Of a stretch of 11,831 nt of DNA, positions 137 to 11,250 are shown piece after piece. Position 1 is the stretch's first letter. Each line of letters opens with the position of its first letter. Below the pieces are notes generated by a model. That model was not told the DNA's origin and searched no databases. It was given only the letters and a program-made list of their open reading frames with translations. A program made the position numbers and the translations under genes. Origin of the DNA: Clostridiales bacterium (lineage in GTDB: Bacteria; Bacillota; Clostridia; Oscillospirales; Oscillospiraceae); the NCBI GenBank assembly GCA_021201515.1, contig JAJQET010000240.1, positions 1 to 11,831 on the forward strand, in the 5' to 3' direction.

Positions 137-2107
137 TTGCCCCTTTTCAAAGTACACGCCCCCTTTGAACCCTCCGGCGACCAGCCGGAGGCCATTGCCG
201 CCCTGGCCCAGGGGGTGGAGCTGGGGCTGGATGAGCAGACCCTGCTGGGGGTCACTGGCTCCGGCAAGACCTTTACCATGGCCAAGGTCATTGAGCAGGT
301 GCAGCGCCCCACCCTGGTGCTGGCCCACAACAAGACCCTGGCCGCCCAGCTCTGTGCGGAGTTCAAGGAGTTCTTCCCGGAGAACGCGGTGGAGTACTTC
401 GTTTCCTACTACGACTACTATCAGCCGGAGGCCTACATTCCCCACACCGACACCTTCATTGAGAAGGACGCCAGCGTCAACGATGAGATTGACCGGCTCC
501 GCTCCTCCGCCACCTCTGCCCTGTTTGAGCGGGAGGATGTAATCGTGGTGGCCTCCGTCTCCTGCATCTACGGCCTGGGCGACCCCATCGACTACAAGAA
601 CATGGTCATCAGCCTCCGCACCGGCATGGAATATGACCGGGACGCCCTGCTGAGCAAGCTCATCGAAATTCGCTATGAGCGCAACGACATCGCCTTTGAC
701 CGGAATATGTTCCGCGTCCGGGGGGACACGGTGGAGATTTTCCCGGTGTACGCCAGGGACCACGCCATCCGCGTGGAGTTCTGGGGGAACGAAATCGACC
801 GCATCAGCGAAGTCAACGTGGTCACCGGCGCCCCCACCCGCATCCTGAACCATGTGGCCATCTACCCCGCCAGCCACTACGTCACCTCCAAGAAGAAGCT
901 GGACAGGGCGCTGGTGGAAATCGAAAAGGAGATGTGGGAGCGGGTGGCCTTTTTCGAGGCCCAGGGCAAGGCGGTGGAGGCCCAGCGCATCCGCCAGCGC
1001 ACCCAGTACGACATGGAGATGATTCGGGAGCTGGGCTACTGCCAGGGCATCGAGAACTATTCCCGGGTGATTTCCGACCGGCCTGTAGGCTCCCCGCCGC
1101 TGACGCTGCTGGACTATTTCCCGAAGGATTTTCTGATGTTCATTGACGAGAGCCACGTCACCCTCCCCCAGGTGCGGGCCATGTACAACGGCGACCATCA
1201 GCGGAAAACCACCCTGGTGGACTACGGCTTCCGCCTGCCCTGCGCCTATGACAACCGCCCCCTGAAATTTGACGAGTTTGAGGCGCGCATCAATCAGGTG
1301 ATATACGTCTCCGCCACCCCCGGCAGGTACGAGCAGGAGCGCTCCGGCCAGGTGGTGGAGCAGCTCATCAGGCCCACCGGCCTGCTGGACCCGGAAATCG
1401 AGGTGCGCCCGGTGGAGGGCCAGATTGACGATCTGATCGGGGAAATCAACCTGCGCATCGAGCGGAAGGAGCGGGTGCTGGTCACCACCCTGACCATCAA
1501 AATGGCGGAGGATCTGACGGAATGCCTCCGCTCCTCCGGCATCAAGGCAAAATATATGCACCACTCCATTGAGACCATTGAGCGGACAGAGATGATCCGC
1601 GACCTGCGGCTGGGCACCTTTGACGTGCTGGTGGGCATCAACCTGCTGCGGGAGGGGCTGGATATGCCGGAGGTCAGCCTGGTGGTCATTCTGGACGCGG
1701 ACAAGGAGGGCTTTCTGCGCTCCGGCACCTCCCTGATTCAGACCATCGGACGGGCCGCCCGGAACGCCCAGGGCAAGGTCATTCTCTACGCCGACACCGT
1801 CACCCCCTCCATGGCCTACGCCATGGACGAGACCGCCCGCCGCCGGGAGAAACAGGACGCCTACAACAAGGCCCACGGTATTGTTCCCAAAACCATCAGG
1901 AAGGATGTGCGGGAGCTGCTGGAGATCTCCAGGGCGGTGGAGGACACCGACGATTTCAGCGGCAAGCAGATGACCCAGGCCGAGATCAGGGCCGCCATCG
2001 ACCGTCTGGAAAAGCAGATGCGCAAGGCTGCCCAGCAGCTGGAGTTCGAACTGGCCGCCGCGCTGCGGGACCAGATCATCGAGCTGCGGGGAAAATTAAA
2101 GAAATGA
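137..2107 (+). CDS. uvrB: UvrB, excinuclease ABC subunit B
   Basis: UvrB is the DNA-damage verification helicase of nucleotide excision repair: UvrA loads it on the lesion and it then recruits UvrC. At 656 aa it has the normal length. The Walker A motif GVTGSGKT lies at residues 38-45. The tyrosine-rich beta-hairpin ([12 protein letters not shown], about 91-102) inserts between the strands at lesions. The DESH helicase motif II is at 337-340, the motif V/VI region ([22 protein letters not shown]) at about 500-543, and the C-terminal UVR coiled-coil domain that contacts UvrC at about 614-650. The start is a TTG at 137-139, chosen because GGGAGGTGA sits 7 nt upstream and the N-terminus [19 protein letters not shown] matches the family. 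The stop overlaps the start of the RAYT gene (ATGA, 2104-2107). uvrB and uvrA commonly lie side by side in Clostridia; here a mobile gene separates them. Confidence 0.98.
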
Positions 2108-2257
2108 CGGAACAAGGTAATACATCACCGCCTATCCGTAAGAGTTTGCGATTGGACAGTTGGAATTATGCTGCAAAGAGTGCATATTTTATCACAATTT
2201 GCACGAGAAACAGGGAATGTATATTTTGGGAAAAGGAGCCTGCTCTCCCAAATCACC

Positions 2258-2280
2258 GTAGGGGCGCACAGTGTGCGCCC
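2258..2280 (+). repeat. GTAG-headed REP-like palindrome, inside RAYT (copy A)
   Basis: A GTAG tetranucleotide followed by G and a perfect 9-bp inverted repeat (GGGCGCACA / TGTGCGCCC, one central base, 2262-2280). Its exact reverse complement occurs at 2437-2459. A GTAG foot next to a hairpin is the hallmark of REP sequences handled by RAYT enzymes in Proteobacteria. Confidence 0.85.
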
Positions 2281-2436
2281 GCTGCTGCGGTTCCCTTAAA
2301 TGCTACCGGACGATTGGTGCGCTTTGCTATTCAACAAATCCCCTCTCATTATCCCACTGTATCGGTAGACCGTTTTGTCATCATGCCCAACCATATTCAC
2401 ATGATTTTATGGATACAGCAGGAGGAAACGTCAGCC

Positions 2437-2459
2437 GGGCGCACACTGTGCGCCCCTAC
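2437..2459 (-). repeat. GTAG-headed REP-like palindrome, inside RAYT (copy B, inverted)
   Basis: This is the exact 23-nt reverse complement of the copy at 2258-2280, ending in CCTAC. The two copies face each other across 156 bp that encode the HUH core of the transposase. The same CTAC end is followed, after 31 nt, by the GTAG of the next repeat pair. Confidence 0.85.
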
Positions 2460-2490
2460 TAGAGCGTGAAGCCTAAATCTTTGTCTTTTT

Positions 2491-2558
2491 GTAGGGGCGG
2501 CCCTTGGCCGCCCTGGGTAAGCAGGCGGTTTTTGCGGGCGGCCGAGGGCCGCCCCTAC
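2491..2558. repeat. 68-bp paired inverted REP-like element (copy 1, BIME-like)
   Basis: Two 23-nt palindromes in opposite orientation (2491-2513 and 2536-2558) surround a 22-nt spacer that includes AAGCAGGCGGTTT. Each unit starts GTAGGGGCGGCCC on its own strand and can fold alone; the two can also pair with each other as one long hairpin. By my count this copy matches the element at 6714-6781 at 61 of 68 positions. It lies between the two halves of the broken RAYT and supplies the TAG (2492) that closes the downstream frame. Confidence 0.9.
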
Positions 2559-2869
2559 ACACGCGGGTGCAAAAACAGAAACTATTTTCCTGCCTGAACA
2601 GCATCACGGGCAATTCCGGTGGCATTTTGCGATGGTTAAATGAAGTAAAGTTTTTGTTTTCACGGTCTACTACGGTTTCCAGGATTGTTAAGCAGCTAAA
2701 GGGAACCATTACAAAACAACTGGGCTATTCTGTCTGGCAAAGGTCTTTTTATGACCATATTCTGCGCAACGAGGACGACTATCTCCTCACAGTTCAATAT
2801 ATTGATGAAAACCCACTCAAATGGGAATTTGACCCCTGCCATCCCCCAACCGTCCAGCGGATTCCCTGA
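2504..2869 (+). pseudogene. RAYT / Y1-type transposase, C-terminal fragment with catalytic Tyr
   Basis: The second half of the RAYT lies in a different frame from the first. Transposase homology begins at about residue 55 (TTVSRIVKQLKGTITKQLG, near 2666) and continues through SVWQRSFYDHILRNEDDY to VQYIDENPLKW. The tyrosine of the YIxxNP motif (Y99, codon 2798-2800) corresponds to the catalytic Tyr of E. coli TnpA-REP (Y115 in DYIYINP). The first roughly 20 residues are just translation of a palindromic repeat pair (2491-2558). The next roughly 30 residues have no evident family match. The frame is closed upstream by a TAG at 2492, inside the repeat's GTAG. There is no plausible RBS at the TTG, so independent expression is doubtful. 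The stop is at 2867-2869 and the uvrA start follows 27 bp later. Confidence 0.8.
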
Positions 2870-2896: not shown

Positions 2897-5734
<2,838 letters not shown>

Positions 5735-6653: not shown

Positions 6654-6713
6654 AGAACCCCGAAACCGTTCTCAGCTTCTACAAGAGCGCAAACCCCGAA
6701 TCTTTACGTTTCT

Positions 6714-6781
6714 GTAGGGGCGGCCCTCGGCCGCCCGGGGCAAGCAGGCGGTTTCTTCGGGCGGCCAGGGGCCGCCCCTAC
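6714..6781. repeat. 68-bp paired inverted REP-like element (copy 2, intergenic)
   Basis: Same design as the element at 2491-2558: units at 6714-6736 and 6759-6781 in opposite orientation, each beginning GTAGGGGCGGCCC on its own strand, with AAGCAGGCGGTTT in the spacer; 61 of 68 positions match. Here the pairing extends 5 bp further out (TTTCT at 6709-6713 with AGAAA at 6782-6786). The 30 bp on the left (6684-6713) also resemble 2461-2490 (21 of 30 by my count). It lies in the 210-bp gap between the multidrug-export-family gene and the 106-aa gene; apart from it I see only a weak hairpin at 6653-6673 (GAGAAC/GTTCTC) without a T-run. Confidence 0.9.
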
Positions 6782-6863
6782 AGAAAAGGAAGCGTTAGCC
6801 TTCCCAATCTATTATGCGCAACCCTCCCCTAAAGTGCATAGGATACTCCGGGGGTGAGAATGA

Positions 6864-9498: not shown

Positions 9499-9500
9499 AA

Positions 9501-9659
9501 AGGAACCTCTGAATAAATGAACGAGAGCGGATTGCGAGGAAATTTGCGTCAGAAAAAGGCGCAAAAGCGCAGGAATCCTGACGGATTTCAAGATTTTGCA
9601 ACGCATTTATGGCGCAAATTTACCGCAAGGCGCCGAAGTGCATTTGTTCAGAGGTTCCT
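9501..9659. mobile_element. 159-bp MITE-like element with long terminal inverted repeats
   Basis: The ends AGGAACCTCTGAA (9501) and TTCAGAGGTTCCT (ending 9659) are perfect inverted repeats; the match continues as AATAAATG versus AACAAATG with one mismatch, and resumes internally (GAAATTTGCG on the left against GGTAAATTTGCG read from the right). A small palindrome CAGGAATCCTG (9570-9580) is near the centre, so the whole element can fold into one long imperfect hairpin. TAA flanks both ends (9498-9500 and 9660-9662), fitting a 3-bp target duplication. It has no transposase, so it would be moved in trans. A TNA-type target and CTCTG-containing ends recall the IS5/IS1031 group, but that is from memory and unproven. 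Confidence 0.82.
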
Positions 9660-9690
9660 TAAGCGGCAAACCATACCGGGAGGTGCTGAA

Positions 9691-11161: not shown

Positions 11162-11175
11162 ACCATTCATTGCAA

Positions 11176-11220
11176 GAAACACGGGAGGATTGCCTGTTAC
11201 TGGCAATCCTCCCGTGTTTC
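11176..11220. terminator. Bidirectional terminator, 19-bp perfect stem
   Basis: GAAACACGGGAGGATTGCC (11176-11194) pairs without mismatch to 11202-11220 across a 7-nt loop. It lies 15 bp after the hydrolase stop and 30 bp after (reading leftward) the MATE gene stop, exactly between two convergent genes. The stem ends in GTTTC on both strands rather than a long U-run, so it works either by stem strength or as a shared bidirectional terminator. Confidence 0.85.
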
Positions 11221-11250
11221 GTCCACAGCTGCTGTGATGCCGGCGCCCCC

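Follow-up and report, generated by a model that had tools for sequence, protein, structure and literature searches.

The stretch of DNA analysed here (11,831 nt; Clostridiales bacterium, GCA_021201515.1, contig JAJQET010000240.1; hereafter the window) carries an interrupted gene for a REP-associated tyrosine transposase (RAYT), a Y1 HUH transposase associated with repetitive extragenic palindromic (REP) elements. The gene lies between two genes that we take to be uvrB and uvrA from the protein sequences of the flanking open reading frames (ORFs), and its span includes REP hairpins of two types, here called A and B, as well as a short element resembling a miniature inverted-repeat transposable element (MITE). 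The features of the locus are:

137-2107: uvrB, 5' neighbour of the broken RAYT gene
2104-2869, + strand: interrupted RAYT gene, recognised from its ORFs, NF047646 and orthologues without the insertion
2104-2469, + strand: 5' part of the RAYT gene with the HUH motif (H97, H99); the stop at its end comes from the insertion
2258-2280, + strand: A-type REP hairpin in loop 1 (before HUH), with a GTAG foot, an 8-bp stem and a 3-nt loop; read as RRGAQCAP
2437-2459, - strand: inverted A-type REP hairpin in loop 2, on the far side of HUH; translated as GRTLCAPT
2456-2459: first copy of the CTAC target site, which is also the foot of the loop-2 (3') A hairpin
2460-2669: MITE-like element of ~210 bp that has TAGAGCGTGAA / TAGACCGTGAA as its terminal inverted repeats and introduced the stop and frameshift
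2491-2513, + strand: B-type REP hairpin, cargo of the element
2504-2869, + strand: 3' part of the RAYT gene with the catalytic-Tyr region (YIDENP), in a frame differing from that of the 5' part
2536-2558, - strand: B-type REP hairpin, inverted, cargo of the element
2670-2673: CTAC target site, duplicated copy
2897-5734: uvrA, 3' neighbour of the broken RAYT gene
6684-6782, + strand: partial copy of the ~210-bp element with a B-type REP pair (6714-6781), 84% over query positions 2-100

Both the HUH and the YIxxNP halves of a RAYT, which an earlier note on this DNA had recognised, are present: HIH occupies residues 97-99 of ORF 2104-2469, and YIDENP lies in ORF 2504-2869. The NCBIfam model NF047646 (REP_Tyr_transpos) matches both pieces (E 1.3e-7 and 1.6e-9, both below the curated cut-off), and Pfam Y1_Tnp gave no match to either piece or in the window's own genome. 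In an alignment of 30 RAYT homologues (A1), both HUH histidines are invariant and the YIxxNP region is conserved; a search of the PDB with the A1 profile (E <= 0.01) returned a single match, the TnpAREP structure 4er8 (E 6e-13). The gene thus combines HUH and C-terminal Tyr motifs, split by the insertion, with homology to a known TnpAREP.

The A-type hairpin has the sequence GTAG + GGGCGCAC/GTGCGCCC and the B-type hairpin GTAG + GGGCGGCC/GGCCGCCC. Counted with an 8-bp stem, one mismatch allowed and a 3-nt loop, the window contains six GTAGGG hairpins, two of which form the second B pair (6714-6781); 300 second-order Markov simulations gave a mean of 0.01 and a maximum of 1, which rules out chance palindromes. 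Four of the six lie within the RAYT span, in agreement with the earlier note; its statement that only one copy is in frame did not hold, since both A copies lie inside the open frame. The A type has the GTAG foot, the hairpin fold and the copy number of a REP element, with 23 copies in its own genome (62% complete), two of them in the window RAYT gene. The four hairpins of the RAYT span are two different things: a native A pair, and a B pair carried by the inserted element.

The A1 profile search found RAYT matches in 23 of 79 genomes, the window's own included. Two congeners (L119 and L127), whose uvrA and uvrB share 95-97% identity with those of the window over the aligned parts, encode an orthologous RAYT in the same position between these two genes; the L119 gene is intact, and the L127 gene lacks the insertion but is frameshifted. 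Both A hairpins are unchanged and in the same positions in the DNA alignment of these genes, relative to which the window has 214 extra nucleotides. Because orthologues without the insertion carry both copies, the A pair is native to the RAYT gene, and a recent self-insertion of this pair is ruled out. The comparison with homologues, proposed earlier as a means of telling inserted from ancestral palindromes, therefore places the A pair before the lesion. It also separates the two explanations that had been offered together: self-insertion as the cause of the gene's death does not hold for the A pair and applies only loosely to the B pair, in that the lesion is an inverted-repeat element carrying B-type REPs; the other explanation, that the gene has a means of carrying recognition sites within itself, agrees with the A pair, which is present in orthologues without the insertion and has counterparts at the same two positions in about 6 of 10 Firmicute genes parsed. 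That earlier interpretation is accordingly supported in part.

The uvrB-uvrA junction is a recurrent RAYT site in the genus, with a uvr gene in the flank examined for 10 of 12 congeners that have a RAYT match (uvr-flanked loci L113, L114, L117, L119, L122-L125, L127 and L131, in addition to window 2104-2869). The uvrB-uvrA RAYTs of the congeners have several REP types, and the copies are alike or nearly so within each gene where the pair is readable.

The window RAYT is broken by the insertion, at a REP foot, of an element carrying a second REP type; its stop and frameshift came with this element, whose insertion point is the foot of the A hairpin in loop 2. The sequence at 2460-2669 has the terminal inverted repeats, target duplication and many copies of a MITE, and is too short for a transposase. 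Used as a query (2460-2672), the element matches at least 18 of the 32 genomes examined in the genus, including its own, which has at least 49 matches when partial and both-strand ones are counted; the element loci are window 2460-2669 and 6684-6782, L272-L276 and L283-L302. Duplications of CTAC, GTAG or CTAG occur at several copies, and 12 of 25 other copies with ends examined directly adjoin an A-like REP (CACAxTGTG or CGAACA..GTTCG type) at its GTAG foot. This element family of the genus often sits on REP feet and itself carries a REP pair of the other type. B-type hairpins also occur in RAYTs of their own in two congeners (L122 and L123; pair VGAALGRP / GRPRAAPT). Insertion sequences that target REPs have been published (PMC1525189), and the ~210-bp element resembles them as a mobile element inserting at REPs; it differs in being short and in itself carrying another REP pair.

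Homologues number at least 7,988 proteins at E <= 1e-10. The prevalence of the native pair was determined from three samples of homologues: the best 80 of at least 541 public-genome loci, for which the query included palindrome-coded residues so that a ranking bias is possible; relatives from the A1 profile search; and matches to NF047646 over 148 class genomes (82 matching among the matches listed), from which 40 with open frames of ~155-220 aa were chosen. The family-model sample was drawn because of the sampling bias that the palindrome-coded residues in the first query could introduce; 30 of the 40 genes were parsed (10 unparsed were dropped), and 22 of these 30 have a strong inverted pair. 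Pooling gave 134 parsed genes, 128 of them non-redundant after 90% de-duplication (window copy included; 28 from the NF047646 sample). A GTAG hairpin was found in loop 1, before HUH, in 78/128 genes and in loop 2, after HUH, in 96/128, compared with 0 and 1 for the reversed sequence, and 67/128 have an inverted pair at the same two loops flanking HUH, with a median GTAG-to-CTAC span of 194 nt (range 158-233). By Firmicute sample, the strict inverted pair is present in 35/56 public-genome genes, 13/22 relatives (14/22 if a gene with both orientations in loop 2 is counted, which accounts for the total of 67) and 18/28 family-model genes. Among the 22 non-Firmicute genes, which were sorted by record titles (two titled only 'bacterium'), none has the inverted pair and 11 have loop-2-only insertions. 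High-scoring pairs include loci from named isolates (L044, L045, L048 and L081); thus, metagenome assembly did not create the pair. REP length classes cluster on a tree from which the loops were omitted, with 12 changes against 27.1 when shuffled (0/200 as low).

Two further groups of homologues were noted. A RAYT subclade (L180, L072, L107, L198 and L209) has a second REP architecture, consisting of GTAG, ~26 nt and a CGTCC[TA]CGAC side, with the in-gene pair matched or nearly so. RAYT homologues mostly from other phyla by title (L063, L065, L092, L097, L100 and L104) resemble the published subclass 2.4 in having REP-like residues (VGA...) in the insert that follows HUH.

The 67 paired genes contain 49 distinct loop-1 hairpins, and the two copies within a gene resemble each other more than either resembles its equivalent elsewhere. 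Compared as reverse complements, the copies are 94.7% identical within a gene, versus 76.8% for the equivalent copies of the nearest relative; gene by gene, within-gene identity is higher in 49, tied in 10 and lower in 8 (Wilcoxon p 2e-9). For the variable part of the hairpin the values are 0.923 within and 0.414 between genes (maximum of 10,000 permutations 0.521), and a separate test of 77 genes gave a mean score of 15.9 for the own pair versus 8.3 (highest permuted mean 9.8). The 67 pairs comprise 34 identical pairs, 32 that differ at equal length and 1 that differs in length. Where stem pairs differ, both sides have changed in 16, with pairing kept throughout, and one side in 6, against an expectation of 2.1 two-sided changes; in a set of 36 distinct 23-nt hairpins (preselected as hairpins), pairing holds for 99.7% of stem cells, and shuffling lowers covariation from 0.531 to 0.155. 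The reading frame of a given hairpin varies among genes: some use frame 0, and others, including the window and L119, frame 1. Given that the copies lie on opposite strands and that one hairpin is read in two frames, it is the DNA hairpin, not the peptide, that is conserved; the in-gene pair changes type in concert within the gene and keeps the hairpin fold.

The in-gene type also tends to match REPs scattered in the genome, with many exceptions. A general GTAG-hairpin pattern (one architecture) occurs 5 to 196 times per genome in 13 genomes, and its reversed form 0 or 1 times. Three specific hairpin types (A, GGATA and CTCGAC) were counted in 41 genomes, with none of the three in four non-Firmicute control genomes; RAYTs were catalogued in 36 genomes, and 60 RAYT regions were taken for parsing. 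The genome-match test used matches strictly within the two loops of 80 parsed genes from 37 genomes (7/97 loci unparsed). The A type occurs outside the gene in 3/4 genomes that have it in the gene, versus 3/33 without (Fisher p 0.010), and the GGATA type in 4/6 versus 5/31 (Fisher p 0.022). The earlier note held that a lack of palindrome enrichment in genomes with this RAYT would refute its reading; the 23 A-type copies and the association of in-gene and genomic type for two of three types, weaker for the third, do not refute it. In G014, the same GGGAC...GTCC variant is found in the gene and in the listed genomic copies. The genomes G007, G017 and G026 (L044, L054 and L077) gave no exact match to the hairpin pattern other than the in-gene pair, whose two copies match. 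Flanking REPs are infrequent: an own-type REP lies within 500 bp outside the gene for 12/62 paired genes, and on both sides for 0/62.

Genomes G007, G017 and G026 are candidates for new arrivals that carry only seed REPs.

From sequence comparisons, we consider the window RAYT to be probably a dead copy from a Firmicute RAYT lineage whose genes have their own REP hairpins as a native inverted pair, flanking the HUH-coding core and presumed to be the cognate substrate. Other RAYTs bind and cut GTAG-footed hairpins of single-stranded DNA, and do not act in this way on the complementary strand (PMC8266576). With one copy in loop 1 and the other, inverted, in loop 2, both strands of the gene would each present a hairpin in the correct orientation, and recognition sites within the gene would take over the part of flanking REPs. 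The in-gene pair could then be the cognate single-stranded substrate of the encoded enzyme, and the gene a self-contained REPtron that would bring seed REPs wherever it is transferred; the enzyme may also act on its own gene (feedback), and the genomic REP pool may maintain the likeness of the copies, through replacement or conversion. A more far-reaching proposal, which we advance only tentatively, is that Firmicute RAYTs must carry their own substrate in the gene, as an obligate cassette kept in step by RAYT-driven replacement; such a REPtron would be portable, self-seeding and self-regulating, with specificity and target changing together.

Several observations weigh against reading the pair as the cognate substrate of its own enzyme. 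A strict inverted pair is lacking in 61/128 genes, and the tree on which REP length classes cluster is weakly supported (6 starred of 64 inner branches). The own partner is the unique best match in only 24/77 genes, and the counts of compensated stem changes lean on a hairpin finder that favours paired stems. Genomic matching is weaker for the CTCGAC type (5/6 versus 12/31; Fisher p 0.075, by counts p 0.005), and there are 20 genome-type cases in which the REP is present with no matching hairpin in a parsed RAYT loop. Strict patterns, gene fragments and incomplete genomes explain some of these 20 exceptions, not provably all; in one of them, G026, the A type sits in a RAYT fragment.

The alternative that best survives, although we judge it unlikely, is that the pair is a neutral passenger: REPs spread by RAYTs would land randomly, survive in two tolerant surface loops and match only through genome-wide REP likeness, leaving the pair functionless. 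REPs inside many unrelated genes have been published (PMC3733652), and the published view of in-gene REPs in TnpAREP subclass 2.4, as a harmless insertion into a surface loop (PMC6006769), counts for this alternative and against a functional pair; the loop-2-only insertions in 11/22 genes from other phyla also favour the alternative. Random landing is difficult to reconcile with the fixed opposite orientation at two fixed places in 67/128 genes, or with the presence of a GTAGGG hairpin in 105/128 short RAYTs versus 0/24 long-ORF RAYT-like control genes (>=229 aa, from 27 loci; two with weaker GTAG hairpins). Genome-wide likeness likewise does not account for the matching copies of G007, G017 and G026, where no other exact match of the pattern was found.

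Selection at the RNA level is less probable still. In this case, the inverted pair would form a long duplex in RAYT mRNA, serving translation control or as an RNase III site, and this duplex rather than recognition of single-stranded DNA would be selected. The one gene segment folded, that of L119, gives a long-range stem of ~27 bp around the HUH-coding part (z -5.85; 0/100 shuffles as stable), which favours this explanation. However, differences between the copies keep the local hairpins and so weaken the long duplex (16/22 differing stem pairs changed on both sides), and same-type hairpins also occur at many places without a catalogued RAYT.

It is very unlikely that the palindrome-encoded residues (VGAxxxRP and GRxxxAPT) are what the protein needs, for example for DNA contact, with the DNA symmetry as a by-product. 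The frame is mostly fixed (61/67 in loop 1 and 58/67 in loop 2), but genes differ in whether the A hairpin encodes VGAHSVRP or RRGAQCAP, and reverse-complement identity cannot come from peptide constraint; the two frames and opposite strands rule out such constraint as the cause of copy likeness. Moreover, both loop inserts lack a counterpart in E. coli TnpAREP 4er8 in the profile alignment, and inserts at apparently the same two places (placed by that alignment) are described as away from the DNA (PMC6006769). Finally, although a REP pair does lie at the break, it is scarcely credible that the gene was inactivated by an inserting REP cognate to its own RAYT: the inserted REPs are B-type cargo of a genus-wide terminal-inverted-repeat element with a 4-bp target duplication, and orthologues without the insertion refute the idea for the native A copies.

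The closest published counterpart of the proposed native pair is TnpAREP subclass 2.4, which takes in RAYT group 4 of Bertels et al. (2017) according to Quentin et al. (2018) (PMC6006769). The latter authors describe REPs inside tnpAREP genes as a feature of this subclass, generally in one region between HuH and Tyr and possibly of little impact, and name Cyanobacteria and Bacteroidetes as abundant (PMC6006769). Shared with the Firmicute genes are the HUH/Y1 REP transposase, in-frame REPs in a variable HuH-Tyr insert (here the loop-2 hairpin of 96/128 genes) and GC-rich REPs with a GT[AG]G foot. In contrast to subclass 2.4 as described there, the inverted pair of the Firmicute genes occupies two fixed sites, including one upstream of HUH, and its copies are matched and change in concert; these genes also mostly lack own-type REPs in the flanks (present in 12/62 within 500 bp, a narrower span than the 1000 nt from the gene searched by Quentin et al., 2018). 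Because REPs near the gene are a feature of that subclass, we regard the Firmicute RAYTs as related to it rather than as members.

Other known systems share single features with the in-gene pair. In the REPtron of E. coli and Stenotrophomonas, a RAYT flanked by REPs, one RAYT type tends to go with one REP type, as here for two of the three types, less clearly for the third and with 20 exceptions, and GTAG foot and hairpin are common to both; here the REPs are inside the coding sequence, not beside the gene. REP doublets forming hairpins (REPINs) and bacterial interspersed mosaic elements (BIMEs) also consist of two REPs in opposite orientation; in the Firmicute genes, the GTAG feet of the two point outward. 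The in-gene pair differs in that its REPs are separated by ~150 nt of coding sequence. Group 3 REPs of S. maltophilia and Marinomonas (PMC8266576) similarly combine GTAG with a short perfect palindrome and a small loop, and differ in host phylum and location from the hairpins reported here. Rickettsia palindromic elements and other intragenic REPs are also palindromes read in frame inside proteins, but these lie in many unrelated genes at mostly differing sites (PMC3733652), rather than at two homologous sites in the enzyme's own gene. In-gene REPs are already published, and the two-site matched pair is apparently undescribed: in the small part of the literature covered, we did not find a matched two-site inverted in-gene pair, its concerted change, its genome match or its prevalence in Firmicutes.

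Two other repeats were observed in the window. The 161-bp sequence at 9500-9660 has 37-nt inverted ends (AAGGAACCTCTGAATAA...) that are 78% complementary, and resembles a second, unrelated MITE. At 11171-11225, a 27-nt inverted repeat with a 1-nt spacer (89% complementary) lies between two convergent ORFs and is possibly a terminator or another palindromic repeat.

Matching between RAYTs and REPs has been studied with few enzyme-target pairs, proteobacterial in the literature examined. Each paired Firmicute gene states its presumed target twice, and the 49 hairpins of 67 genes thus provide dozens of candidate enzyme-target pairs that can be read directly in the DNA, suited to tests of binding and specificity and to working out a recognition code. 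The in-gene pair also illustrates clearly how a protein-coding gene can conserve a nucleic-acid structure irrespective of reading frame. It bears as well on the seeding of REPs after horizontal transfer, in which a RAYT could bring its own REPs.

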